A program made the translations under genes and the position numbers. This document shows positions 1,605 to 60,420 of a stretch of 64,000 bases of DNA, piece after piece. The notes under the pieces are model-generated. The model made no database searches. It was given only the letters and a program-made list of their open reading frames with translations, and had not been told where the DNA came from. Position 1 is the stretch's first letter. Every line of letters starts with the position of its first letter. The DNA comes from Methanocaldococcus bathoardescens (lineage in GTDB: Archaea > AGJL01 > Methanococci > Methanococcales > Methanocaldococcaceae). The DNA lies in assembly GCF_000739065.1 (NCBI RefSeq), contig NZ_CP009149.1, positions 248,001 to 312,000 of the forward strand. The letters run 5' to 3'.

Positions 1605-2542
1605 ATGATTTGTTGGTTATTAAAAACCTATATGTGAATTTCTTGGTTGATGATGTTAAGGTTAAGGCAGTTAATGGAGTTAGCATCAGCATAAAAGAGG
1701 GAGAGACCCTCTGCCTAATAGGAGAGAGTGGGAGTGGAAAATCTGTCTTAGGACTTTCTATACTAAGATTACTGCCAGAAAATACTGAAATTAGTGGAGA
1801 GATAATCTTTAATGAAAAAAACCTCCTTTCTCTACCAGAGAAGGAAATGAGAAAGATTAGAGGAAAAGAAATAGCTTGGGTCCCTCAAAGTCCATCAACA
1901 TCCTTAAACCCAGTATTAAAGGTTGGTTATCAAGTTGCAGAGTCAATGATATTACATCTAAAATTAAGCAAAAAGGATGCATTAGAAAGGACTGTTGAAC
2001 TTTTGGATTATTTTGGCATATATCCAGCAAGGAGAAGGGCTGAAGAATACCCTCACCAATACAGTGGAGGGATGAGGCAGAGGGCTTTAGTGGCTATGGG
2101 AACTTCAACAAAACCTAAGCTTATAATTGCAGATGAGCCAACAAAAGGTGTTGATGTAATAAAGAAGGTTAGAGTGGTTAAGCTCTTTGAAAAGATTAAG
2201 AGAGATAATGATAAGCCCTCTCTACTTTTAATAACTCATGATATCCCATTTGCTAAAAAATTGGCTGATAGAGTTGCAGTTATGTATTGTGGGCAGGTAG
2301 TTGAGATTAGCAAGGCAAAGGATTTCTTTAAAAATCCTCTCCACCCATATTCAAAGGCACTCTTAGAATCTCTCCCATCAAATGGATTAAAACCAATTAA
2401 AGGGAATTCTCCAAGTATGATAAATCCTCCAAAAGGTTGCAAATTCCACCCAAGATGTGAGTTTGCTACAGAAAAATGCCTTAAAGAGCCACCATTCTTT
2501 GAGCATGATGGGAACTTTGTGAGGTGCTATCTATATGATTGA
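1601..2542 (+). CDS. ABC importer ATPase, DppD/NikD type
   Basis: Cytoplasmic ATP-binding subunit of the importer. Walker A is GESGSGKS near residue 42, the signature is YSGGMRQRA, Walker B is LIIADEPTK, and the C-terminal oligopeptide-transporter extension carries the cysteine cluster CKFHPRCEFATEKC that in DppD/DppF proteins binds a 4Fe-4S cluster. The D-loop reads PTKGVDV rather than the usual PTTALDV, so the conserved Thr-Ala-Leu is replaced by Lys-Gly-Val, which is unusual. It overlaps the genes on both sides by a few bases, indicating tight operon organisation. Confidence 0.9.
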   Translation: MNDLLVIKNLYVNFLVDDVKVKAVNGVSISIKEGETLCLIGESGSGKSVLGLSILRLLPENTEISGEIIFNEKNLLSLPEKEMRKIRGKEIAWVPQSPSTSLNPVLKVGYQVAESMILHLKLSKKDALERTVELLDYFGIYPARRRAEEYPHQYSGGMRQRALVAMGTSTKPKLIIADEPTKGVDVIKKVRVVKLFEKIKRDNDKPSLLLITHDIPFAKKLADRVAVMYCGQVVEISKAKDFFKNPLHPYSKALLESLPSNGLKPIKGNSPSMINPPKGCKFHPRCEFATEKCLKEPPFFEHDGNFVRCYLYD

Positions 2543-3452
2543 GGGTAAAAATCTGTATAAAATCTTTGAATCTGGGATATTTTCAAAACGTAAGATTGTT
2601 GCAGTTGATGGGGTTGATATTGAGATTAAAGAAGGAGAGACATTGGCATTGATTGGGGAGAGTGGTAGTGGAAAATCAACATTAGGCAGAATGCTGTTAA
2701 TGCTAACAGAACCAACTAAGGGAGATGTTATCTTTGAAGAAAAAAACCTCACAAAGATGAAAAAATCTGAGTTAAGGAAGATTAGGAGGAAAATGCAATT
2801 AATCCCTCAATATCCAGATACTGCATTAGACCCAAGATGGACAATATATGAGAGCATTGCAGAGCCGTTAAGGATTCACAAAATTGCAGACAATGAGTAT
2901 GACAAAATTAAAGAACTCATAGAAATCGTTGGATTAAAAGAAGACCATTTAAACAGATTTCCACATGAACTTAGTGGGGGAGAGTTGCAGAGGGCAGTTA
3001 TAGCAAGGGCTATGGCTTTAAATCCCAAATTTATTGTCTGTGATGAGCCAACGTCCATGTTAGACGTTTCTGTCCAAGCATCTATTTTAAATCTCCTCAT
3101 GGAATTGCAGAGGGAGAAAAATCTATCCTATCTATTTATAACCCATGATTTGGAGGTTGCAAACATAATGGGCCATAGAATGGCTGTGATGTATGCTGGG
3201 CAGATTGTTGAAGAAGGAAGAGATATCTTAGAAGAGCCTCTTCATCCATATACACGACTCCTTGTAGAATCCTTGAAGATGGAGGAAGAAATAGCCGATA
3301 CTGAATTAGAAATCAAAAAAAGCTTGGGTTTTGTTGAGGGTTGTAAATACTACAACCTCTGCCCACACCGCAGTGAGAAATGTTTGAGAGAAAAACCTCC
3401 ATTGGTGGAGGTTGATAAAAACAGAAAGGTTAGATGCCATTTATATGCGTAA
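2535..3452 (+). CDS. ABC importer ATPase, DppF/NikE type
   Basis: Second ATPase of the importer, pairing with the previous one. Walker A GESGSGKSTLG, signature LSGGELQRA, Walker B FIVCDEPTSMLDVSVQA and the switch histidine in TLFITHDL-like FITHDLEV are all present. The C-terminal region again has a cysteine cluster (CKYYNLCPHRSEKC) typical of the oligopeptide_oriented family. It starts inside the end of the upstream ATPase gene. Operon and order B-C-D-F are clear; the substrate is not. Confidence 0.9.
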   Translation: MIEGKNLYKIFESGIFSKRKIVAVDGVDIEIKEGETLALIGESGSGKSTLGRMLLMLTEPTKGDVIFEEKNLTKMKKSELRKIRRKMQLIPQYPDTALDPRWTIYESIAEPLRIHKIADNEYDKIKELIEIVGLKEDHLNRFPHELSGGELQRAVIARAMALNPKFIVCDEPTSMLDVSVQASILNLLMELQREKNLSYLFITHDLEVANIMGHRMAVMYAGQIVEEGRDILEEPLHPYTRLLVESLKMEEEIADTELEIKKSLGFVEGCKYYNLCPHRSEKCLREKPPLVEVDKNRKVRCHLYA

Positions 3453-3464
3453 AGAGGGGATATT

Positions 3465-4220
3465 ATGGAGAATATAAAAGACCATATCAAAAAATACTGG
3501 GATATGAGAAGTGAAACCTACGACAACTCTCCCGGACACTCTGGTTTGCCAGAGGTTTGGAAGAAAGTTTTATATGAGACGTTTGGAGACAGAAAGCTAA
3601 GAATCTTAGATGTGGGAACTGGAACTGGATTTTTAGCAATTTTGTTGGCAGAGTTGGGGCATGATGTTGTTGGTATTGATTTATCTGAGAGAATGCTTGA
3701 GAGGGCTAAAAAGAAGGCTGATGAAAAGGGTTTAGATATAGAGTTTATGATTGCGGATGCTGAAAACCTACCTTTTGATGATGGAGAGTTTGATGCTGTG
3801 ATTAATAGGCATCTGCTATGGACACTACCAAATCCACAGAAGGCCATTAATGAATGGAGTAGAGTTATAAAAATGGGAGGAAAGGTTGTAGCAATTGATG
3901 GTAGATGGAGAGAAAAAACTCTTGAGGAGAAGATTAGAAGAACCATTGGGCAGATAGCAATATTGATATATGAGAGAAGAAATCCTTGGAAGATTATGAG
4001 CATATATGAGAAAGAAGAGATTAACAAAAAACTCCCGTTCTATGGTGGCTCAAAACCAGAAAATATTGTAAATCTCTTTAAGAATGCAAACTTAGCCAAC
4101 ATCTCTGTTAGAGACCTTAAATGGATTAGGGAGGAGCTAAATAAAAATTATCCTCTCCTATATAGAATAGCTTGGAAAAACAAAACTTACTACCTTGTTG
4201 AGGGGTATAAAATATCATAG
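3465..4220 (+). CDS. Class I SAM-dependent methyltransferase
   Basis: Cytoplasmic methyltransferase of the UbiE/Methyltransf_11 type. Motif I is ILDVGTGTGFLAILLA near residue 46, the acidic residue that binds the ribose is in VVGIDLSERML, and post-I/II elements are visible as IADAENLPFDDGEFDAV. A GAGGGG ribosome site precedes the ATG. It lies 12 nt after the last importer gene and is probably cotranscribed, which hints that the methylated product or substrate may be what the importer handles (for example a metal-binding small molecule); that link is only inference. Its 3' end overlaps the decayed gene on the other strand. Confidence 0.82.
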   Translation: MENIKDHIKKYWDMRSETYDNSPGHSGLPEVWKKVLYETFGDRKLRILDVGTGTGFLAILLAELGHDVVGIDLSERMLERAKKKADEKGLDIEFMIADAENLPFDDGEFDAVINRHLLWTLPNPQKAINEWSRVIKMGGKVVAIDGRWREKTLEEKIRRTIGQIAILIYERRNPWKIMSIYEKEEINKKLPFYGGSKPENIVNLFKNANLANISVRDLKWIREELNKNYPLLYRIAWKNKTYYLVEGYKIS

Positions 4221-4889: not shown

Positions 4890-6025
4890 TCATCTTAAAT
4901 CCACCCCAATTTTATTTAATGCGGCATTTGCCTCATCACATTCATAAGCTTCTATCTCTGGAATACCATCTTTTAAATTCTCAAGTGCAAAAACCTTCAA
5001 GTTTGTGTTTTTTTCATAAGCTTTCTCTAAGATTTTTTGAAGAAACTCTAAGTTATGAGTTGTTATAAAAATCTGGTTTTTTTGGGAGGATGTGATTATT
5101 AAATCAACAACTTTATCCATTAATTTTGGATGTAAGTGGTTTTCTGGTTCTTCCAATAAAATGTAAGAGTTTTCAAGGGATAGTGCATAATAATACAACA
5201 GTGCCATCTTTGTTCCGTCTCCTAATAATGAGATTGAGATTTGTTTGTTGTCCTTTGAGACTAAGAATGTGTCAAATATCTTTGGGACAATATCAACGAT
5301 TTCTGTATTTAGCTGTTCTGATATGAAGTTTAATAAATGCTCTTTATCAACTTTTGAGTATTTTTCAATTCTTTTTATAAATGAAACCATTAATCGTGAG
5401 GTTTCTTCATCTACTACTATAACACTTGATTTTTCTATGTTAGGCTCACTTAACAGGTATTCTGTATGGATTCGGTATTCTAAAGAGGAGTTATCTTCAA
5501 CTATGGAAAATATTGGAAAATTGTTTTTATCTACTATAATAAATATTGGAGTTATCTCTATGTATTCTCTTTTTACTTCACCAGTTTTTATAGAAATAAT
5601 TACTTTCTTTTTTGTAAAATTTCTTTAAAACATCTTCTGGAAATTCTCCAAAATATGCAGTCAATCTAAAATCGTTTAAGTTGGAGTTAATAGAGAGGGT
5701 AAATTTATCTCCTTTAAAATTTTCCCAGTCAGAGTAGAACAGATATGTTAAAACTAAATTGATAACATCCCAATCATCACCAATATCAGAATGTGTGACT
5801 CTCCCAATTTCAGAAATCCCTCTTCTTGAAAATATTGCCCTAAATGGATGAATACCCAATAAATCCCTATTATTTTGAACTAAATTTAAATAAATGCTTT
5901 CAAGAAGTGTGCTTTTTCCAGTGTTGTTTTTTCCAATAAATACATTAATATCTCCCAAAATCTGATATTTCTGCCTTTTTAAATGCTCTAAAATTTTCTA
6001 TTTTAATCCATTTTAATTTTTCCAT
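4890..6025 (-). pseudogene. Frameshifted OLD-like/AAA_15 ATPase
   Basis: An ATP-binding protein of the OLD/AAA_15 group split into three frames. From the ATG at 6025 the protein reads MEKLKWIKIENFRAFKKA and ends early; the Walker A region (INVFIGKNNTGKSTLLE) continues in another frame after about 5955; a second shift occurs at a T6 run, 5608-5613, after which the frame continues to 4890 with LLEEPENHLHP (Walker B) and FITTHNLEFL. Removing one base at each of the two places restores one full protein of about 375 residues. It precedes the TOPRIM-like pseudogene, forming a two-gene ATPase plus nuclease-like cassette, the pattern seen in several phage-defence systems. Confidence 0.72.
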
Positions 6026-29864: not shown

Positions 29865-30875
29865 TTATTTTAAAGCCTCTTTAATAGCATACCATTCAAT
29901 AATAGAAGTTGGCTTTATTATTCCATTAATAACATCATAAAATAAAACCTCATTCTTAATTAAAAACTTAACATCTTCAAAAATTTCATCCTCAATATTA
30001 TTTATATCTACCTCAATCTTCTCTTTGAACTTACTTAAAACTTTTAATAAATTTTCTTTTTTTTCTTTATTTGATTTTAATAGATAAATTAATGCATCTT
30101 TTTCAATATTTATCCACTGTTTTATTGTCTTTTCTATGGATAGTCCTAATTTTTTATTATTTATCAGTTGAGAAATCTCATAAGGTAGAGATAGATAATT
30201 TAAAGCATAATCAATTTCTTCTTCGCTAAATTCCTCTTCTTTTAAGATTTTTTTGATATCTTCCTTGTTTAGCCAATCAATTAGATAATATTCAGAAGTA
30301 TTTTTTAAGGCAGAATTTCTATAAATCTCTTCGATAAATAAAGTATCTGATGTTAAACAAATTACATGGCATAAATGCCGAACTTTTGTTAAATGCACAA
30401 AGAGATTAAATAGCTCGTTTAATAACGATTTTCCCCCGTTAAAATAAATATTTTTTAACTTCTGTAACTCATCAATTATTAAAATCGGCTTTTTTCTATC
30501 TTTAATAACTTCTTTAATACTTTCTTTTATTTTATTAAAAACATCATTTAAAGATAAATTTTTAAAATCAAAATTTTCCTCTATTCCAAATTTGAATATT
30601 TTTAAGTCAATCTCTAATTTGTTTAATAAGTATTTTTTATCCCCTTTTTCAAAAAATATTTCCAAAAATTCCTCTTTTGTAGGTGTTGCATATTCCCTCA
30701 AATCATAGTAAAAAAATACAAAATTATTATTTTTAGATAATTCCTCAATAACTCTAAGCATTACCGTAGTTTTTCCAGAAGATTTAGGGCCGTAAACAAA
30801 GAGTATAGAATTGGGCTCTAACTGACAGTAGGTTTTTAGATAATTTAACTCTCTTTCTCTGTTATAGAATTTCAT
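29865..30875 (-). CDS. Archaeal STAND-like ATPase (MJ1301/MJ1544 type)
   Basis: 336-residue P-loop ATPase of the multi-copy Methanocaldococcus archaeal-ATPase group. Walker A GPKSSGKTT near residue 28, Walker B PILIIDELQ near 131, a sensor-like CHVICLTSDTLF segment, then a winged helix-like C-terminal part. The N terminus reads FYNRERELNYLK, a typical start of this family. Related proteins may be mobile or defence-linked; here it is a lone gene. Confidence 0.82.
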   Translation of the reverse strand: MKFYNRERELNYLKTYCQLEPNSILFVYGPKSSGKTTVMLRVIEELSKNNNFVFFYYDLREYATPTKEEFLEIFFEKGDKKYLLNKLEIDLKIFKFGIEENFDFKNLSLNDVFNKIKESIKEVIKDRKKPILIIDELQKLKNIYFNGGKSLLNELFNLFVHLTKVRHLCHVICLTSDTLFIEEIYRNSALKNTSEYYLIDWLNKEDIKKILKEEEFSEEEIDYALNYLSLPYEISQLINNKKLGLSIEKTIKQWINIEKDALIYLLKSNKEKKENLLKVLSKFKEKIEVDINNIEDEIFEDVKFLIKNEVLFYDVINGIIKPTSIIEWYAIKEALK

Positions 30876-35585: not shown

Positions 35586-38500
35586 ATGATACTAAATAGC
35601 ATAAAGATGAACAACTTTAAAAGCCATGTTAATACAAAAATCAACTTTAATGATGGAATTGTCGCCATTATTGGAGAAAATGGTAGTGGAAAGTCATCAA
35701 TATTTGAGGCAGTGTTTTTTGCCTTATTTGGGGCTGATGCTTTGAAAAAGATGGGTTTAACTTACGATGCAATTATAACCAAAGGTAAAAAGGCTATGTC
35801 TGTTGAGCTTGAATTTGAAGTGAATGGCAATAAATATAAGGTTATTAGGGAATATGATGGGAGAAGTTCAGCAAAACTATATAAAAACAGTGAATTGTAT
35901 GTAAAAACAGTTAATGAAGTTAATAAAGCAATTTCTGAAATTTTAGGAGTAGATAAAGATATGTTTTTAAATTCCATATATATTAAGCAGGGAGAGATAG
36001 CAAATCTTTTAAATTTGTCACCATCTGAAAGAAAAGAAGTTATTGGAAAGCTTTTAGGAATAGAAGAATTTGAAAAGTGCTATCAAAAAATGAGAGAGGT
36101 TATTAGTGAGTATGAAAAACAGTTAAGAGAAATTGAAGGAAATTTAAATCAGAAAAAAAGTTATGAGAAAGAACTAAATGATAAAGAAAATGAATTATCT
36201 AAAAAAGAAAAAGAACTTGAACTAATTAAAAATAAGATAAATAAAATTAAGGAAGAATTTGAAATCGCTAAAAAGAATTTTGAAGAATGGAAAAACAAAA
36301 AATCTTTATATGAAAAATTGATAAATAAACTTGAAGAGAGAAATAAAGCTTTAGAACTTGCCAATAACGAACTTGAAAACTTAAAATATGATTTAAATGA
36401 AGTTATAAAAGCAAAAGACATATTAAAAGTATATAAAGATGAATATGAAGAATATAAATCTCTAATTGATGAAATTAGAGTAATTGATAAAAGATTAAAA
36501 GATTTACAGCCAGCTTATGAAGGATACTTAAAGTTGTCTAAGAAATTAGAGGCTATTGGGGAAGATATCAAAAATTTAAAAGAATTTATCAGTAAAAGTA
36601 AGTATAAAGACAAAATTGATGAATTAGATAAGATTTTAGAGAATATTAAAGGAAATATTGAAGAAATTGAAAATATTAAAGAATTGCTTGGTGAACTCGA
36701 AAATCTATATGAAAAGCTTGATGAGATTGAGAAATATAAGAAAGTTGCTAATGAATATAAAGAATACTATGAGAAATACTTAGAATTAGAGAAGAAAATA
36801 GATGAATATAGCAAATTAAATTTAGAGTACACCAAATTATTGCAAAATAAAAAATCAGTTGAAGATAATATAAGAAATCTAACTTATGAAATTGAAAAAA
36901 TTGAAAATGAATTAAATAATATAAATATTGAAGAAATCAAAAAATTATTGGATGAGATTGAAAAAAAGAAAGATGAACTTACTCAATTACAAAAACAAAA
37001 AGAAGAGTTGAAACAAAGAATTGGTGAAATCAATAATGAAATTAAAAGGATAGAAAAGGTTTTAGAAGAGCTTAAAGACGTTGAAGGAAAATGTCCATTA
37101 TGTAAAACACCAATAGACGAGGATAAAAAGCACGATTTAATAAATTCTCATAAAACTCAATTAAATAACAAATACAATGAATTGGAAAAGATAAAAAGAA
37201 AAATAAAAGAAATTGAGAATGAAATAAATGAAATAAATAATGAAATTGCTAAAGAGAAGAAGCTTAGGGAGCTTGAAACTAAATATCATGAAAAACAGAA
37301 GAATTTAGAAAGTTTAAAGTTAAAATTAGATGAGTTTAAGAAAGAATTAGACAATGTTGAGAATCAAATAAGCAACTATATTATCAATGGAAAATTAATA
37401 AATGAATTGTTAGAGGAAGCTAAATCCCAACTAAATGAAATTAAAGATAAATACAATGAATACATGTCTGCAATGAAGTATTTAAATAGTGTTGATGAAG
37501 AAAAGCTTAAAGAAAATATTAGAGATATTAAAGAGAGAATTAAAGGATGGAATAAAGAGAAGTGTAAAGAAGAGCTAAAAAAACTTAGAGAAGAAGAGAA
37601 AGAAGTGTCTTATTTAAAAGATAAAATTGTAGAGCTTAAAAAGAAAGAAAATGAATTCAAAGAACTTGAAAATAAAATGTTATCAAAGTTAGGAATGTAT
37701 AAAGAATATTTATCATTAAATGAAAAATTAGAGAGATATAAAAAGAGACAGTATGAGCTCGAAGATATATATAAGAGATGCAATTCAGCAGAAATTACTT
37801 TAAACAACATCAAAAGAAAATATGGAAAAGAAGATATTGAAAATTACTTAAATAATAAAATTTTAGAAGTTAATGAAAAAATTAAAGACATAGAAGAGAG
37901 AATTAATTATATAAATCAAAAGCTCAATGAGATAAATTATTCTGATGAAAAATATGTCGAGATAGAGAAAGAGTTTGAGAAAAAGCAGAATGAACTTAAA
38001 GATGCTGAAATAGAGATGAGCAAAATAGAATCACAAATAAAATATTTAAAAGATGATATTGAAAACATAAATCTAAAATTAAAAGAACTATCTGAGTTGG
38101 AAAAAGAAAGAGAGAAATTAATAAAGTTTATTGAGTATTTAAATAAGATTAGAAAAATATTTAGTAGAGATGGATTCCAAGGGTTTCTAAGAGAAAGATA
38201 TGTTCCATTAATCCAGAAATATTTAAATGAGGCATTTAATGAGTTTGACTTGCCTTACAGCTTTGTAGAGCTTACTAAAGATTTTGAGATAAAGGTTCAT
38301 TCCCCTAATGGCATCTTAACTATAGATAATTTAAGTGGTGGGGAACAAATAGCTGTTGCTCTCTCTTTAAGATTGGCTATAGCCAATGCTTTAATTGGGA
38401 ATAGGGTTGAGTGCATTATCTTAGATGAACCAACAGTATATTTAGATGAAAACAGAAGAGCTAAGTTGGCTGAAATATTTAGAAAAATTAATAGCGTTCC

Positions 38501-38609
38501 ACAGATGATAATTATAACTCACCATAGAGAACTTGAAGATGTCGCAGATACTATAATCAATGTTACAAAAGAAGGTGGAATTTCAAAGGTTAAAGTTAAT
38601 GAATCCTAA
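35586..38609 (+). CDS. rad50: Rad50 DNA repair ATPase
   Basis: ABC-type SMC-like ATPase, 1007 residues. Walker A GENGSGKSSIFE (residue ~33), Q-loop ONSIYIKQGEIA-like IYIKQGEIANLL, two long coiled coils, the zinc hook CPLC at residues 503-506, the signature LSGGEQIAVALSLR and Walker B CIILDEPTVYLDE. Partner of Mre11. AG-rich ribosome site GGGGATAGCT before the ATG. Confidence 0.96.
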   Translation: MILNSIKMNNFKSHVNTKINFNDGIVAIIGENGSGKSSIFEAVFFALFGADALKKMGLTYDAIITKGKKAMSVELEFEVNGNKYKVIREYDGRSSAKLYKNSELYVKTVNEVNKAISEILGVDKDMFLNSIYIKQGEIANLLNLSPSERKEVIGKLLGIEEFEKCYQKMREVISEYEKQLREIEGNLNQKKSYEKELNDKENELSKKEKELELIKNKINKIKEEFEIAKKNFEEWKNKKSLYEKLINKLEERNKALELANNELENLKYDLNEVIKAKDILKVYKDEYEEYKSLIDEIRVIDKRLKDLQPAYEGYLKLSKKLEAIGEDIKNLKEFISKSKYKDKIDELDKILENIKGNIEEIENIKELLGELENLYEKLDEIEKYKKVANEYKEYYEKYLELEKKIDEYSKLNLEYTKLLQNKKSVEDNIRNLTYEIEKIENELNNINIEEIKKLLDEIEKKKDELTQLQKQKEELKQRIGEINNEIKRIEKVLEELKDVEGKCPLCKTPIDEDKKHDLINSHKTQLNNKYNELEKIKRKIKEIENEINEINNEIAKEKKLRELETKYHEKQKNLESLKLKLDEFKKELDNVENQISNYIINGKLINELLEEAKSQLNEIKDKYNEYMSAMKYLNSVDEEKLKENIRDIKERIKGWNKEKCKEELKKLREEEKEVSYLKDKIVELKKKENEFKELENKMLSKLGMYKEYLSLNEKLERYKKRQYELEDIYKRCNSAEITLNNIKRKYGKEDIENYLNNKILEVNEKIKDIEERINYINQKLNEINYSDEKYVEIEKEFEKKQNELKDAEIEMSKIESQIKYLKDDIENINLKLKELSELEKEREKLIKFIEYLNKIRKIFSRDGFQGFLRERYVPLIQKYLNEAFNEFDLPYSFVELTKDFEIKVHSPNGILTIDNLSGGEQIAVALSLRLAIANALIGNRVECIILDEPTVYLDENRRAKLAEIFRKINSVPQMIIITHHRELEDVADTIINVTKEGGISKVKVNES

Positions 38610-38635: not shown

Positions 38636-39037
38636 GTGATAACCATATACAAAATAGTTCCTGACACTAACTTTTTAATTTATGTTTTTAAGCATAAGAT
38701 AAACTTTGATTATGAGATAGAGAGGGTCATAAATTCAAAATTTGAAATTGTTATTCTCTCTCCTGTAAAAGAAGAGTTAGAGAAGTTATTAAGAAGCGGA
38801 GATTTAAAAGGTAAAGAAAAATTAGCTGTTAATTTAGCCCTTGCAAAAATAAAAAACTATAAATTAATTAACTATGAAGGTTATGCAGATGAGGTAATTT
38901 TGAATTATGCAAAGGAAAATAAAAATGTCATTGTTGCAACAAACGATAAAGAACTTAAAGAGAAATTAATGGAAAACAACATTCCAGTAATAGTTGTTAG
39001 GCAGAAAAAATATTTTGAGGTTTTTGGAATGCTATAA
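38636..39037 (+). CDS. PIN-domain ribonuclease, start codon uncertain
   Basis: About 133 residues in the VapC/FCF1 type of PIN domain: VPDTNFLIYVF with the first acidic residue, PVKEELEKLL, LKGKEKLAVNLALAKI and VIVATNDKELKEKL carry the acidic positions. The GTG at 38636 is inside the GGTGAT ribosome site (38635-38640); four bases further comes ATA-TAC-AAA-ATA-GTT, where one would expect ATG, so the original start may have mutated to ATA. No antitoxin gene is adjacent; it may be an rRNA-processing type rather than a toxin. Confidence 0.65.
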   Translation: MITIYKIVPDTNFLIYVFKHKINFDYEIERVINSKFEIVILSPVKEELEKLLRSGDLKGKEKLAVNLALAKIKNYKLINYEGYADEVILNYAKENKNVIVATNDKELKEKLMENNIPVIVVRQKKYFEVFGML

Positions 39038-39106: not shown

Positions 39107-40529
39107 GTTTTTACACCGTAACGGTCTGATTTTAACTTATAAAGTTTTGTGGGAAGCTAAAAGTCAAACATATGTTTCCATACCGAAACGGTCTGATTTT
39201 AACTATTGTTTATTTCTTCAGTTGCAGGGGAATCAATCTTAGATATGAAGTATAGTTTCCATGCCGAAACGGTCTGATTTTAACAGGACTGGATAAGTCA
39301 TGCCGTAGAGAGGCCAGGAGCACTAGTTTCCATACCAAAACGGTCTGATTTTAACTACTACATATATGTAAATTGGTGATAAAATGGCTGATGTAAGTTT
39401 CCATACCGAAACGGTCTGATTTTAACGCCGTTTAATTCTCTTACCGCCTCACACCCTCCCTTGCAATAGTTTCCATACCAAAACGGTCTGATTTTAACAA
39501 CTTCTATAGGAATAGTTATTTTACAGTATAATTCATCGTTTCCATACCGTAACGGTCTGATTTTAACTTATAAAATGAAAATAAAAGGCAGTATTGGAAT
39601 GATTGAGTTTCCATACCAAAACGGTCTGATTTTAACTTGCATACATTGCTAAAAAATATCTGTAGGTGAAACTAGTTTCCATACCGTAACGGTCTGATTT
39701 TAACTATCACTTGTTGGTTACCGTAAAACTAAATGAGTTTCCATACCGTAACGGTCTGATTTTAACGATGCAATAACTTCATTAGCCCCACCTGTATTAA
39801 ATACGGAGCATTTGTTTCCATACCGTAACGGTCTGATTTTAACCAAATTCCCAACTAACACCGAAAACTATCTCCCTATGTTTCCATACCGTAACGGTCT
39901 GATTTTAACATCCCTTTAGATTCTCAATTCTGTAGGCAGTTAGAAGTTTCCATACCGTAACGGTCTGATTTTAACTTAATCTTAAAAGTGGTGGAATAGG
40001 AGCTGGTGGTGGGGCGTTTCCATACCGTAACGGTCTGATTTTAACCATTAACTGATAATAATACAATTGATAGATTAAAAAGTTTCCATACCGTAACGGT
40101 CTGATTTTAACAAAATAGATGAAAATACTTCAATTGTTATTGATTTATGGTTTCCATACCGTAACGGTCTGATTTTAACTTTAAGTTTTGTTATTGTTTC
40201 GTAAATTTTAAATAATTCTTGGTTTCCATACCGTAACGGTCTGATTTTAACAAGATTGACGAATATCAACACCTTCAGAAAAAAGAATATTTAGAGTTTC
40301 CATACCGTAACGGTCTGATTTTAACTTTTGATGTTTCTGGAGTTTATTCACATAATTGTGTTTCCATACCGTAACGGTCTGATTTTAACCAATGTAGAAT
40401 TTGATATTACTAATATTTGGGATATATCTTAGTTTCCATACCGTAACGGTCTGATTTTAACAATTTTAATGTATCTTTTACTGCTGGTGGCATATCCTTG
40501 TTTCCATACCGAAACGGTCTGATTTTAAC
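39107..40529. CRISPR. CRISPR array, 21 repeats of 30 bp, 20 spacers
   Basis: The repeat begins GTTTCCATACCG and ends GGTCTGATTTTAAC on the + strand. Spacers run from 32 to 51 bp, mostly 34-44. The first repeat (39107) is degenerate (GTTTTTACACC) and several leftward repeats carry GAAACGG or AAAACGG in place of GTAACGG, whereas repeats 9 to 20 are uniform. Degenerate copies mark the old end, so I infer transcription on the minus strand from a leader on the right; this gives processed ends like ATGGAAAC. No cas genes lie in the window. Confidence 0.97.
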
Positions 40530-54518: not shown

Positions 54519-55919
54519 ATGATTATAACCATATTGGACAAATGTAGGGTAGAAGAGAAATGCAAATCCTGCCCATTTTATCATAAAACTGCAAAATGCA
54601 TGGAAGCATGTCCTACAAATGCAATATTTTTGCTAAACAATAAAAGTTTCACATGTTTAACGTGTGGAGAATGTGCAAGAGCCTGTCCAAATAAAGCAAT
54701 TAAAAGAAACAAGTTTGGAGGCTATTATGTAGATAGAAGGAGATGTAATGGCTGTGGAATTTGTGCTAATGCCTGCCCAATAGGAATTATAAAAATTGTA
54801 GAAAAGGATGGAAAAAAATTTCCAATGGGTATTTGTTCAATGTGTGGGGTTTGTGTTGAAGTCTGCCCATATAATGCAAGAGTTAGCTCTTATGAATTGT
54901 TATACAACAAAAGAGAAGGATTAGCAGATAGATATTTAAAAATCTTAGAAAATCTTATGAAAATTAAATTAATGGAAATTTCTAAAACACCAAAAAACAT
55001 TGTTGAGAGAGTTGAAAGAAAATCTATTAAAATTGATAGAGATAAATGCGTTGGATGTTTAAGATGCTCTTATCTCTGTCCAAGAGAAACAATAATCCCA
55101 GATTCTATAGACGCATGCACATCCTGTAATTTATGTGGAGAGGTTTGTCCAAAAGATGCCATTAAAGATGGAGAAGTTGATTATAATAAATGCATTCTCT
55201 GTTTAAAATGCATAGAAGTTTGTCCAAATGATGCTTTAAAAGTTGAAAACTTTAAAGTTATTAAAGTTAAAGAAGATAAAAAATCTCAACCAACAAGTTA
55301 TTGCATAAATTGTGGATTATGTGCAGAACATTGCCCAAGTGGGGCTTTAAGGTTTGAGGAGGGGCATCTATATTACAGCCCAGACGTTTGTTGGAAATGT
55401 ATGAAATGCATAGAAGTTTGTCCAAACGATGTTAGAAGAGTTAAAGATGATAGAGTTGTTGGTGGATGCTCATTGTGCGGAATTTGTATAAATAACTGTC
55501 CAGAAGAAGCAATATCAATAACAACAGTTAAATTGGAGAAAATTAAGGATGAAAATTGTATATTGTGTGGAACATGTTCAAATGTATGTCCAAGAGACGC
55601 TATAATAATAGATAGAAGTAATGGGGAAGTTTTATTCACTGATAATTGCATAGCTTGTGAAACATGTGCTATCCACTGCCCAAGAGATGTGATTCCAAAC
55701 ACAACTGGCTATAAAAAAATCGTTGATAGAGAAAACTCATTTATTAGGACTGATATGGACTTCTGTATAAAATGTGGTCTCTGCAACAAGGTCTGTCCAA
55801 ACAACTGCATTGATTATGGAGTTATTAATACTAATAAATGTGAGTTTTGCTCTGCATGTTACAATATTTGCCCAACTAAAGCTATATATCTACATAGAAA
55901 GTGGAAAGTGAAAGAATAA
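54519..55919 (+). CDS. ehbK: Ehb polyferredoxin (multiple 2[4Fe-4S] units)
   Basis: 466-residue cytoplasmic electron carrier with many cluster motifs of the CxxCxxCxxxCP form spread from residue 20 to 455 (for instance [35 protein letters not shown]-like [84 protein letters not shown]). Feeds electrons from the Ehb hydrogenase to ferredoxin-dependent enzymes. GGTGATATT precedes the ATG. Confidence 0.93.
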
Positions 55920-55936
55920 AATTTTTGGTGATTAAG

Positions 55937-56437
55937 TTGGCTGAATTAAAAAATTTTGCCAAAATATTTTTGACTGGGATATATGAGAACTTAGAGAGAA
56001 TTATCTTTGGGTCTGAAAGATACACAAGCTTAGAGATGAGAAAAGCAATATTAACAGGAACTGTTAAGATTCCAAAAACAGTTATTGAAGAGCTCTGCAT
56101 TGGTTGTGAAGGATGTGCTAATGTTTGCCCAACTAATGCAATTGAGATGATTCCAATTGAGCCAGTTAAAATAACTGAAAACTATGTTAAAGACAAAATA
56201 CCAAAAATTAATCCAGAAAAATGTGTATATTGCCTATATTGCCACGACTTTTGTCCAGTTTTTTCTGTGTTTAATGAAATATCTCCAATACATCCAAGAG
56301 ATGTTGGTGAAGATTATATAGAGATTGATGTATCAAAATTACTACAGAAAAAAGTAGAAATTTCTGAAGAGCAAATTAATAAGATTAGCTCTATATTATC
56401 AATCAACTTAAGAAGAATTATTAAGGATAAATCTTAA
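55937..56437 (+). CDS. ehbL: Ehb 2[4Fe-4S] ferredoxin-like subunit
   Basis: 166 residues with two cluster motifs in CIGCEGCANVCPTNAIEM and CVYCLYCHDFCPVFSVF, flanked by helical ends. TTG 55937 as start gives GGTGAT-4 nt-TTG, identical to the 750 gene, and ends the upstream overlap; the longer frame from ATG 55901 overlaps ehbK by 19 nt. Last Ehb gene visible here; the large and small hydrogenase subunits are not in this window. Confidence 0.82.
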   Translation: MAELKNFAKIFLTGIYENLERIIFGSERYTSLEMRKAILTGTVKIPKTVIEELCIGCEGCANVCPTNAIEMIPIEPVKITENYVKDKIPKINPEKCVYCLYCHDFCPVFSVFNEISPIHPRDVGEDYIEIDVSKLLQKKVEISEEQINKISSILSINLRRIIKDKS

Positions 56438-56441
56438 AAAT

Positions 56442-58832
56442 TTAAATTGTTGGTAGGCATCCATTTCTTAATATAGTTTTGTCATCTACTTTCCATCCTC
56501 TTCTAACTGCATTTACATGTTTATGAGCATAATGCACAGGAGCTGGTAGTTTCATTTTATCAGGCATAAGTTGAGAGAAATTAATTTTAGTCAGCAGTAT
56601 TAGCTGTTTTATATCTTTTTCTTCAATTTTTACTCTCTTATAACTTCCATCATCAATGTGGTATTTTTCTACAATTTTAATAGGTTGTTTTAAAAATCTT
56701 TTATAATAATGAGATGAAACATAATATGCCCTCCCGAATTTTGTATATGCATTTTTACCTTCAGGAACTGCTTTTTTATTTTTAATATCATTTTTAATAT
56801 CAAAGAATCTTAATTTTGTAGATTTCCTGACATCAATATATATAATTTCAAAACCATACTTTTTTGATATTAGGGATAATTTTTCTAATTCCTTTTTGAA
56901 TATTCTTCCATCTTTTAGTAGGAGAATTTTAATTTTTCTTTTGTTATTTAGGTTTAAGTGTGGAACTAATTCACTATAGACTTTTGCAAACAATTTATCA
57001 TATTTTGCAATTTCACTTGATGTATGGACATCTTCAAAAGTTACAGTTGTAATAACATGTCCATGACAGTTATAAATTATAGCAGAACCACCAATGCCTT
57101 TCATTTTATCATTTTCATCTTTTTCTTTGGTAATATCATACCCAATTATAAAATCATAATCTCCCAACTCCTCACTGAAAGAAAATAAATACATCCCCAT
57201 TTTGTGAAAGAACTGGGATAAGATGCTGTTAATAAATGGTTTTTTAAAATCATCGTCATTTAAACATCTTTTTAAATTAAATGGATACATAAATTGATGA
57301 AATGTTGTTTGTTGATAGGAGAAAAGATGAGATTTTAATTCATCAAATTCATTATTTGGAAGTTTTGGAGAGATACAAATTAAAAATGGTTGTTCTTTTT
57401 CTTCTAAATTATTTAAAACTGTTTGAGTTATTATTGCACGAGAATTAGCATAATCCTCAAAATCTATTTCTTTTTCTAATTTTATTTCAATTTTTGGAAT
57501 GTTTTTGTCTAATTTATGTAAGATTGACAATTTTCTAAAAATATCTTTTATGAAATTTAACTCTACGTCTGAAATATTAGAGTAGAATATATAAATACCA
57601 ATTTTTTCTTTTTCTTTCAGCATTGGTGGAATTACTAATGGGAGAAATATTTCTCTATCATTCAACCTTTTATTAAAAATCCAGTCAAATAAATACATTA
57701 GTTTTAAGTAGTTATATGTTTTAATTCCGTTTTTTGTTCTTAATTTTATATTTATTTTTGGAACTGTGGAAAGTTGTGCCATTACATACCCATCTTTTGT
57801 AAGAATATTTGAAAATTCTCCGTCAAAGTCAATAAGATTTCCGTACATACCTAAAATTTGTTTTACTGTTTCTAATTCATATAAAAATTTACCTCTATCT
57901 AAAATAATCTTTTGAGTTTTTTCATCAATTCCCTTATACAATAAGGCATTTTTAGTATGGTATATGTCTCTTTTCTCTTCTCCAATGAGTATATAGCAAT
58001 GAATATCCTCTCCCCCTACTCTGATAGGTATACCTTTTTCTTTATAGTAATTATTTATATCTTCAACATATTTCCAATATTCTTTTTCCTTAGGATTTAT
58101 AATTTTCTTAATTTTTACTTTTTTTCTTTTTGCTCCTTTTCTTGATGTAGTAATAAAGACATTACCTTCTAATAAATCTCTTTTTAATTTATCGATATCG
58201 ATTTTATTACTTTTTAACATTTCATATATAGTTTCTGAGCTTATAATTCTATGCTTTGGCATAACTACTAAAAAATAGTTCTCATTTTCGTCAGATTCAA
58301 CTGTTATAGTAAAGTATGTTAGTATTTTTTGTCCAATATCTTCTGAAAGTTCTTCTTCTTTATATTCTATTAACTTTCTTATTGCAGGATGGGCCTTAAT
58401 CGCTCCTAAAACTATCTTCTCTTTAGTTTCCCAATTTAATTCATACCAATTTACTTTTTCTTCATTAATAATCTCAAAATTGATTTCACTTTCATATTTT
58501 TTCGTTACATAATCCAATAATGTTTTATTTTTTATATCCTTAATTCCCAAATCTTTCATTCTCTTTTCTAACTCCTCACTTTTTAAATCTTTTATTTTTT
58601 TATTTAATATCCTTTTCCAAATATAAAACGAAAATTCATTTTTTAATGGATTGTAATCTCCAATATAAACTCCCCCAAGAGTCGCAACAATTGAATAGAG
58701 TAATTTCTCAATATCTTCTTTTTCATCCAAATAATTAATTTTACACACTATTCTTACACAATTTTTTGAAACAACATCAATAAAATGTTTGTTTATTAAA
58801 AATGAGTTTGTGTAATACCAATTTTCTTCCAT
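56442..58832 (-). CDS. Long prokaryotic Argonaute with apparent D-E-D-H catalytic set
   Basis: 796 residues from ATG 58832 (GGTGAAC before it). Domain order fits N, PAZ-like, MID, PIWI. The C-terminal PIWI half shows GDYDFIIGYDITKEKD (D566), SSEIAKYDKLF (E607), KILLLKDGRIFKKELEKL (D641) and PAPVHYAHKHVNAVRRGW with H770 in the fourth position, a D-E-D-H arrangement as in some active eukaryotic Argonautes; the M. jannaschii enzyme has Asp there. The MID part reads SYQQTTFHQFM and NSILSQFFHKMG. Nucleic-acid-guided nuclease by family. It lies 5 nt from ehbL (convergent) and no nuclease or helicase partner is adjacent. Confidence 0.9.
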   Translation of the reverse strand: MEENWYYTNSFLINKHFIDVVSKNCVRIVCKINYLDEKEDIEKLLYSIVATLGGVYIGDYNPLKNEFSFYIWKRILNKKIKDLKSEELEKRMKDLGIKDIKNKTLLDYVTKKYESEINFEIINEEKVNWYELNWETKEKIVLGAIKAHPAIRKLIEYKEEELSEDIGQKILTYFTITVESDENENYFLVVMPKHRIISSETIYEMLKSNKIDIDKLKRDLLEGNVFITTSRKGAKRKKVKIKKIINPKEKEYWKYVEDINNYYKEKGIPIRVGGEDIHCYILIGEEKRDIYHTKNALLYKGIDEKTQKIILDRGKFLYELETVKQILGMYGNLIDFDGEFSNILTKDGYVMAQLSTVPKINIKLRTKNGIKTYNYLKLMYLFDWIFNKRLNDREIFLPLVIPPMLKEKEKIGIYIFYSNISDVELNFIKDIFRKLSILHKLDKNIPKIEIKLEKEIDFEDYANSRAIITQTVLNNLEEKEQPFLICISPKLPNNEFDELKSHLFSYQQTTFHQFMYPFNLKRCLNDDDFKKPFINSILSQFFHKMGMYLFSFSEELGDYDFIIGYDITKEKDENDKMKGIGGSAIIYNCHGHVITTVTFEDVHTSSEIAKYDKLFAKVYSELVPHLNLNNKRKIKILLLKDGRIFKKELEKLSLISKKYGFEIIYIDVRKSTKLRFFDIKNDIKNKKAVPEGKNAYTKFGRAYYVSSHYYKRFLKQPIKIVEKYHIDDGSYKRVKIEEKDIKQLILLTKINFSQLMPDKMKLPAPVHYAHKHVNAVRRGWKVDDKTILRNGCLPTI

Positions 58833-59011
58833 ATTGTTCACCACATTTATTTACAATCTTTAGTGGTTGGATATTTACAATAATAATTTCGAGTATAATA
58901 TTTAATAAATATTACGGTTTTACAAATAAAAAACAAATAATTAACTCTACTGATTTGTTTAGAATAATATTTAAAACATTTAAACTAAAAAAAGAGTAAT
59001 TCACAAAAATT

Positions 59012-60394
59012 TTATAAATCTGCTTCCTTTATAGCATCATACAACGCATTACAGAGATAAATAATTTCTTCCTCTGTTATTGATAATGGTGGAACTAATA
59101 TGACTACATTACCTATTGGTCTCATGTAGATACCTTTTTCAAGTAATTTATCTGCAACTCTATAGCCAGCTTTATATCCGTAAGGGTAGGGCTCTTTTGT
59201 TTCTTTATCTTTTACAAGTTCAATTCCAACCATAAAGCCTCTTCCCCTAATATCCCCAACATGTTCAAGTTCTTTTAATTTTCTAAGTTCTTCATGGAAA
59301 AGCTTTATTTTTGGTTGAATATTTTCTATTACATTTTCTTTCTCAAAAATCTCTAATGTTGCTAATGCAGCAGAGCATAAAAGTTGATTTCCAGTGTATG
59401 TATGCCCATGGTAAAACTGCTTACTCTCTCCAAAATCTCCAAGGAACATATTGTATATTTCATCAGTTGTAAGTGTTGCTGCTAATGGCAAATACCCTCC
59501 AGTTATCCCTTTCCCAAGGCAGAGAATGTCTGGTTTTTCTAATTTTTTTAGCTCTTCATTATCACAGAAAAACATTTTTCCAGTTCTTCCAAATCCAGTT
59601 GCTACCTCATCAAGAATAAAGATTACATCATTCTCCTTACATGCCTTTGCTACTCCCTCAATATACCCATCTGGAAATGGTATCATTCCAGCAGAGCCCA
59701 TAACTCCTCCTTCAAGGATAACGCAAAATACCTCCTCGCTATGTTTCTCAATTAACTCAACAATTTCATTTAAACACTCCATTCCACAGCCTTTTTCATT
59801 TCTCTCATCAGTATCTCTGAAGTTGTAGTATTTGCATCTGTAACAGTAAGGAGGGTCTGCATGATAACCTTTAAATAATAGCGGTTTAAATACCCCATGG
59901 AAAAGCTCACTACCTCCAACACTCATTGCTCCAACAGTATCTCCATGATAACCCTCTTTAACTGAAATAAATTTAGTTCTTCCTTTATCTCCCCTCAAAA
60001 CATAATACTCAAATGCCATCTTAACTGCAATTTCAACAGCTTCTGCACCATCCTCAGAATAGAACACTTTTGTTAAATGCTTTGGAGTAATGTCTATTAA
60101 TTTTTTTGCCAATAAAATAGAAGGGACGTTTCCACAGCCTAAAAGTGTTGAGTGACAGATTTTATCTGCCTGATTTTTTATTGCTTCAATAATTTCCTTT
60201 CTACTATGTCCAAATAGGTTACACCATATAGATGAGACAGCATCCAAATATCTATTTCCATAAATATCAATTAAATAATTCCCCTCTCCTCTCTCTATAA
60301 TTAAGTTTTTTGATTCTCTATACTCTTTCATTTGCGTATAAGGATGCCAAACATATTCCTTATCCCATTTATCAAGTAATTCTGGGTTTTTCAT
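59012..60394 (-). CDS. bioA: DAPA aminotransferase (biotin synthesis)
   Basis: Converts 7-keto-8-aminopelargonate to 7,8-diaminopelargonate with SAM. PLP site features: KWDKEYVWHPYTQMKEY at the start, YSEDGAEAVEIAVKMA, VSIREGYHGDTVGAMS-like VKEGYHGDTVGAMSVGG, FILDEVATGFGRTGK and GKGITGGYLPLAA with the lysine. Start ATG 60394 after GGTGGTGTTT. Last gene of the bio cluster in transcription order. Confidence 0.96.
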   Translation of the reverse strand: MKNPELLDKWDKEYVWHPYTQMKEYRESKNLIIERGEGNYLIDIYGNRYLDAVSSIWCNLFGHSRKEIIEAIKNQADKICHSTLLGCGNVPSILLAKKLIDITPKHLTKVFYSEDGAEAVEIAVKMAFEYYVLRGDKGRTKFISVKEGYHGDTVGAMSVGGSELFHGVFKPLLFKGYHADPPYCYRCKYYNFRDTDERNEKGCGMECLNEIVELIEKHSEEVFCVILEGGVMGSAGMIPFPDGYIEGVAKACKENDVIFILDEVATGFGRTGKMFFCDNEELKKLEKPDILCLGKGITGGYLPLAATLTTDEIYNMFLGDFGESKQFYHGHTYTGNQLLCSAALATLEIFEKENVIENIQPKIKLFHEELRKLKELEHVGDIRGRGFMVGIELVKDKETKEPYPYGYKAGYRVADKLLEKGIYMRPIGNVVILVPPLSITEEEIIYLCNALYDAIKEADL

Positions 60395-60420
60395 AAACAC
60401 CACCTCTTATATATTAAATT

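Follow-up and report, generated by a model that had tools for sequence, protein, structure and literature searches.

Methanocaldococcus genomes encode one or the other of two long Argonautes that are distantly related to each other, or no Argonaute, and the two types lie at different loci. The M. jannaschii protein (MjAgo, MJ1321) is often taken as the Methanocaldococcus Argonaute. The window analysed here, a stretch of 64,000 nucleotides of the Methanocaldococcus bathoardescens genome (contig NZ_CP009149.1, positions 248,001 to 312,000), carries the other type on its minus strand (ago, 56442..58832). We consider it likely that this gene encodes a competent long-A prokaryotic Argonaute (pAgo) of a lineage other than that of MjAgo, that it entered as a single-gene insertion at the junction of the Ehb ferredoxin gene with bioA, and that its product acts as a DNA-guided nuclease against invaders.

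The open reading frame is intact, with 796 codons starting at ATG 58832. An in-frame GTG lies 12 bp further upstream and could extend the gene to 58844; we prefer the ATG because it is directly preceded by the motif GGTGA. The protein falls into an N/PAZ half (approximately residues 1-415) and a MID-PIWI half (approximately residues 443-796). Its membership in the Piwi superfamily of prokaryotic Argonautes follows from a Pfam match to Piwi (PF02171, residues 505-781, E = 5e-15) that scores 55.9 bits, above the curated cut-off of 28.9, while the same search returned no separate PAZ match and NCBIfam gave no match to the protein. Among proteins of known structure, the best sequence matches were TtdAgo of Thermococcus thioreducens (8wd8, 8jsi; 2e-33) and PfAgo of Pyrococcus furiosus (1u04, 8jpx; 2e-27), followed by MjAgo (5g5s, 5g5t; 1e-12). 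All of these are long Argonautes, the window protein having 796 amino acids versus 750 and 770 for TtdAgo and PfAgo, respectively. The MjAgo structure 5g5t can be aligned over residues 102-793, as expected of a long-A pAgo with the full N-PAZ-MID-PIWI length. The PADLOC model PprPIWI matched seven out of seven archaeal Argonautes tried, and is thus no marker of this particular lineage.

The preliminary description had placed four PIWI residues at the expected spacing, and the alignment bears this out exactly. D566 (codon 57135..57137), the glutamate finger E607 (57012..57014), D641 in an LLKDG motif (56910..56912) and H770 in a PAPVHYAHK motif (56523..56525), all on the minus strand, are invariant with respect to PfAgo (D558/E596/D628/H745, as counted on the PfAgo alignment of the PDB search) and to the published tetrad of TtdAgo (D538/E576/D608/H725; PMC10017986), and chance is excluded as the source of the four-residue match. 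The canonical DEDX tetrad occurs in 79% of long-A pAgos, whereas long-B and short pAgos lack it (PMC6299218). To regard D-E-D-H as something special was nevertheless an overstatement: proteins of the PfAgo/TtdAgo type ordinarily carry this tetrad, and since it is common to all Thermococcales Argonautes in our set, to a Thermotogota protein and to others, it is no sign of novelty. By contrast, the fourth residue is Asp in the alignment rows of both MjAgo and MfAgo (the Argonaute of M. fervens), in line with what the preliminary description stated for MJ1321. In the MID domain, K500, Q513 and K544 are invariant with MjAgo, PfAgo and TtdAgo, the last two also sharing the PAPVHYAHK motif, so that the Lys, Gln and Lys of long-A pAgos are all in place. 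We take these columns to be the 5'-phosphate guide-binding positions of the family. The encoded protein is complete and, judging from these residues, probably an active nuclease.

A full-length structure prediction made without an alignment reached a pLDDT of only 34. A model of the MID-PIWI region, built from just two sequences (that of the window and that of a related locus), had its confident part confined to the RNase H core. When compared with PDB folds, the latter model ranked TtdAgo and PfAgo first, in structures holding guide and target DNA, and MjAgo next. As the homologue of PfAgo H745, H770 very likely lies near D566, E607 and D641.

In trees of the MID-PIWI region, the window protein formed a single, fully supported clade (100/100) with two orthologues, one 95% identical and at the same locus in a congener (G006, probably strain FS406-22), the other 70% identical and encoded in a genome of another genus and another family of the Methanococcales (G034). 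In contrast, MjAgo and MfAgo formed a clade with an Argonaute of Thermotogota (98/97), which was joined next by those of Archaeoglobales. AU tests strongly rejected a forced union of the window type with the MjAgo clade, both on the 23-row MID-PIWI tree (p-AU 2e-6) and after removal of long branches and short fragments (p-AU 8e-6). MjAgo and MfAgo come from the same genus and share the overall architecture of a long Argonaute, but they carry DEDD, lie behind rad50, and are only 21-22% identical to the window protein overall (25% for the MjAgo type in MID-PIWI). No match of the N/PAZ half (residues 1-415) to MjAgo or TtdAgo was found by phmmer. These results support an Argonaute lineage distinct from MjAgo, as had been proposed from a first reading of the sequence. 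The Thermotogota Argonaute (L010, 1769-3819) is itself encoded in two separate frames that overlap (1769-2512 and 2449-3819), which reflects either a frameshift or a MAG assembly error.

The window protein does not belong to the PfAgo/TtdAgo clade either, in spite of its DEDH tetrad: identity in MID-PIWI is approximately 29%, and a forced union was rejected, albeit more weakly than that with MjAgo (p-AU 0.0045). The N/PAZ half matched only two Argonautes, both uncharacterised and from Thermococcales (G409 L023, E 4e-16; G404 L024, E 1e-15). These are the nearest proteins outside Methanococcales by path length, and the full-length tree placed them as sister to the window lineage (92/92). Like the window protein, they have a recognisable N/PAZ half and DEDH; they differ from it in identity (approximately 31% in MID-PIWI and 23-25% in N/PAZ), in having HLSHR where it has HYAHK, and in genomic place.

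The host genome is a single contig of 1,607,556 bp, and the window ago is its only Piwi gene, as judged by a Piwi family search and by a search with MjAgo itself. It follows that M. bathoardescens has no orthologue of MJ1321, a check that the preliminary description had called for. The gene order rad50-ago-PIN is observed in G003, which we take to be M. jannaschii (its Argonaute has 713 amino acids, as in PDB 5g5t, and lies behind rad50), as well as in G001, taken as M. fervens, which agrees with the position next to rad50 that the preliminary description gave for MJ1321. In the window, rad50 (35586..38609, plus strand) is directly followed by the PIN-domain gene (38636..39037, plus strand; Pfam PIN_9, 2e-20), and the 26 bp between them contain no remnant of ago. 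G006, G011 and G010 likewise have the two genes side by side. The PIN gene had been thought to fill the place of ago, but it is a conserved downstream neighbour: because M. jannaschii and M. fervens have it behind ago, it is no substitute for that gene. The CRISPR array noted beside it is real (39107-40529, 21 repeats, Rfam CRISPR-DR13). No cas genes were recognised among the open reading frames near this array, and the single cas1 of the genome lies approximately 143 kb away (G000:C1:431019-431819).

Could the window ago then be a diverged MJ1321 orthologue that moved some 18 kb to its present place? In M. jannaschii and M. fervens, ago does lie in this broader region, behind rad50; the two types are alike in being long Argonautes, and no genome has both. 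However, MjAgo groups with Thermotogota and Archaeoglobales to the exclusion of the window lineage, and a 25% identity in MID-PIWI with no N/PAZ match is hard to reconcile with host proteins that are approximately 85-94% identical at both loci. Such a move is very improbable, being already contradicted by the trees, the AU tests and the identities.

The window ago, a lineage of its own, sits between the convergent ends of two genes: a gene for a two-[4Fe-4S] protein of the ferredoxin type, the last of the Ehb cluster (55901..56437, plus strand; Pfam Fer4) and a bioA-like aminotransferase gene of the biotin cluster (59012..60403, minus strand; named from its sequence and gene order), which lies upstream of ago on the same strand. 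Flank matches to four related loci (L063-L066) delimit an inserted stretch at 56432..59011, composed of ago and approximately 180 bp of AT-rich upstream DNA. The whole junction stretch is 94% identical in G006. In M. jannaschii and G011, the ferredoxin and bioA flanks match the window at the DNA level, and the junction holds approximately 1.5 kb and 1.1 kb, respectively, each with an AAA ATPase gene: that of G011 is an ATPase_2 by Pfam, and that of M. jannaschii starts with very similar sequence. In G009, the ferredoxin gene and bioA are 20 bp apart, without ago. The junction is therefore a variable slot, occupied by an Argonaute in two genomes, by an AAA ATPase in two, and by 20 bp in one. 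The 'new place' ascribed to this Argonaute is new relative to MJ1321 only, as the gene occupies this junction in one congener too. The slot ATPase (ATPase_2/MJ1010-like; L065 545-1606 in G011, L064 in M. jannaschii) has a paralogue elsewhere in the window, at 29865-30875. A further AAA ATPase gene, of the AAA_15/AAA_21 type (4890-5958, minus strand), is broken into N-terminal and C-terminal open reading frames and is probably a decayed defence-type gene.

The window type is present in two of 14 Methanocaldococcus genomes, some of them incomplete; another two have the MjAgo type, ten have neither, and none has both. In the phylum as a whole it occurs in three out of 36 genomes. A scan of genome contigs for relatives returned one locus, and scans of viral contigs and a plasmid search returned none. 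The G034 orthologue lies at a different locus, among unrelated core genes, and is flanked by pieces of an ISC1217-like transposase and of an IS1595-like zinc-ribbon protein. It has no neighbour in common with the window, and no partner gene travelling with ago was seen. Prokaryotic Argonautes spread mostly by horizontal gene transfer (PMC6299218). Taken together, the junctions that are empty (G009) or filled by an ATPase (M. jannaschii, G011), the patchy presence, and the transposase fragments in G034 support the insertion of ago by itself into a variable slot, by which the gene would have been acquired horizontally. The borders of ago in the window show neither a transposase nor, among flanking repeats, a convincing target-site duplication, and neither its GC content (25%, as low as that of rad50) nor its native-like codon use points to a foreign source. 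A phylogeny built on three linked host proteins did not resolve the closest species.

Loss in relatives could produce part of the same pattern. Taken to its full extent, this would make the gene a second Argonaute that Methanococcales had ancestrally and that most lineages have since lost, and not a recent acquisition. The 70% identical orthologue in a different family of Methanococcales and the native-like codon use fit this reading, but the G034 copy lies elsewhere, amid transposase fragments, the gene is found in very few genomes of the phylum, and the junction is clean or carries another gene in G009, M. jannaschii and G011; we regard it as unlikely. Acquisition remains the favoured account. 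The alternatives first put forward, that of a second type in the genus and that of an acquired replacement, are accordingly better worded as a second type that was probably acquired separately: 'replacement' applies only insofar as no sampled genome has both types, and the two lie at different loci. It is conceivable, although we give it little weight, that the junction is a single-gene cargo slot that swaps defence-type genes (Argonaute or AAA ATPase) and that its Argonaute has guide or target properties unlike those of both MjAgo and PfAgo.

By analogy with PfAgo and TtdAgo, the protein would bind short 5'-phosphorylated DNA guides in MID/PAZ, and its D566/E607/D641/H770 centre would cleave the complementary DNA strand opposite the guide, using Mn2+ or Mg2+ at high temperature. 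TtdAgo, whose tetrad is the same, uses DNA guides to cut DNA, works faster when these are 5'-phosphorylated, and loses activity upon mutation of the tetrad (PMC10017986); PfAgo and MjAgo are likewise listed with 5'-phosphorylated DNA guides (PMC6279821). TtdAgo also degrades plasmid guide-free at low salt (PMC10017986). The window protein may perhaps make its own guides by guide-free chopping. Its likely role would be the destruction of plasmid, viral or other invading DNA, a defensive function suggested by the family to which it belongs. Guide or target preference could nevertheless differ, given the approximately 29% MID-PIWI identity and the exclusion from the PfAgo/TtdAgo clade. An RNA-guided or RNA-targeting enzyme would be consistent with that exclusion and with the variation of guide type among long-A Argonautes (PMC6279821), and sequence alone cannot tell guide preference. 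However, K500, Q513 and K544 are common to the DNA-guided archaeal proteins, and MjAgo, PfAgo and TtdAgo all use DNA guides on DNA (PMC10017986, PMC6279821), which makes an RNA enzyme quite improbable.

Several long Argonautes of thermophiles have hsdM and/or hsdS, genes of Type I restriction-modification, as neighbours (L010, L016, L017, L027), and the Thermotogota locus L010 has the order hsdM-ago-hsdS. The occurrence of HsdS near pAgos has already been reported (PMC6299218).

In the mostly non-subscription literature, where uncommented catalogue entries are possible, we found no paper linking an Argonaute with M. bathoardescens or FS406-22, and no characterised member of the window lineage. 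What is new is that one genus has, in different genomes, two Argonautes that are distant relatives of each other; the kind of protein is itself well known, and the general picture of Argonautes is unchanged. Within Methanocaldococcus, the finding offers a natural comparison of two Argonaute lineages in closely related hyperthermophilic hosts, and the DEDH enzyme of the window is a candidate thermostable DNA-guided nuclease tool.
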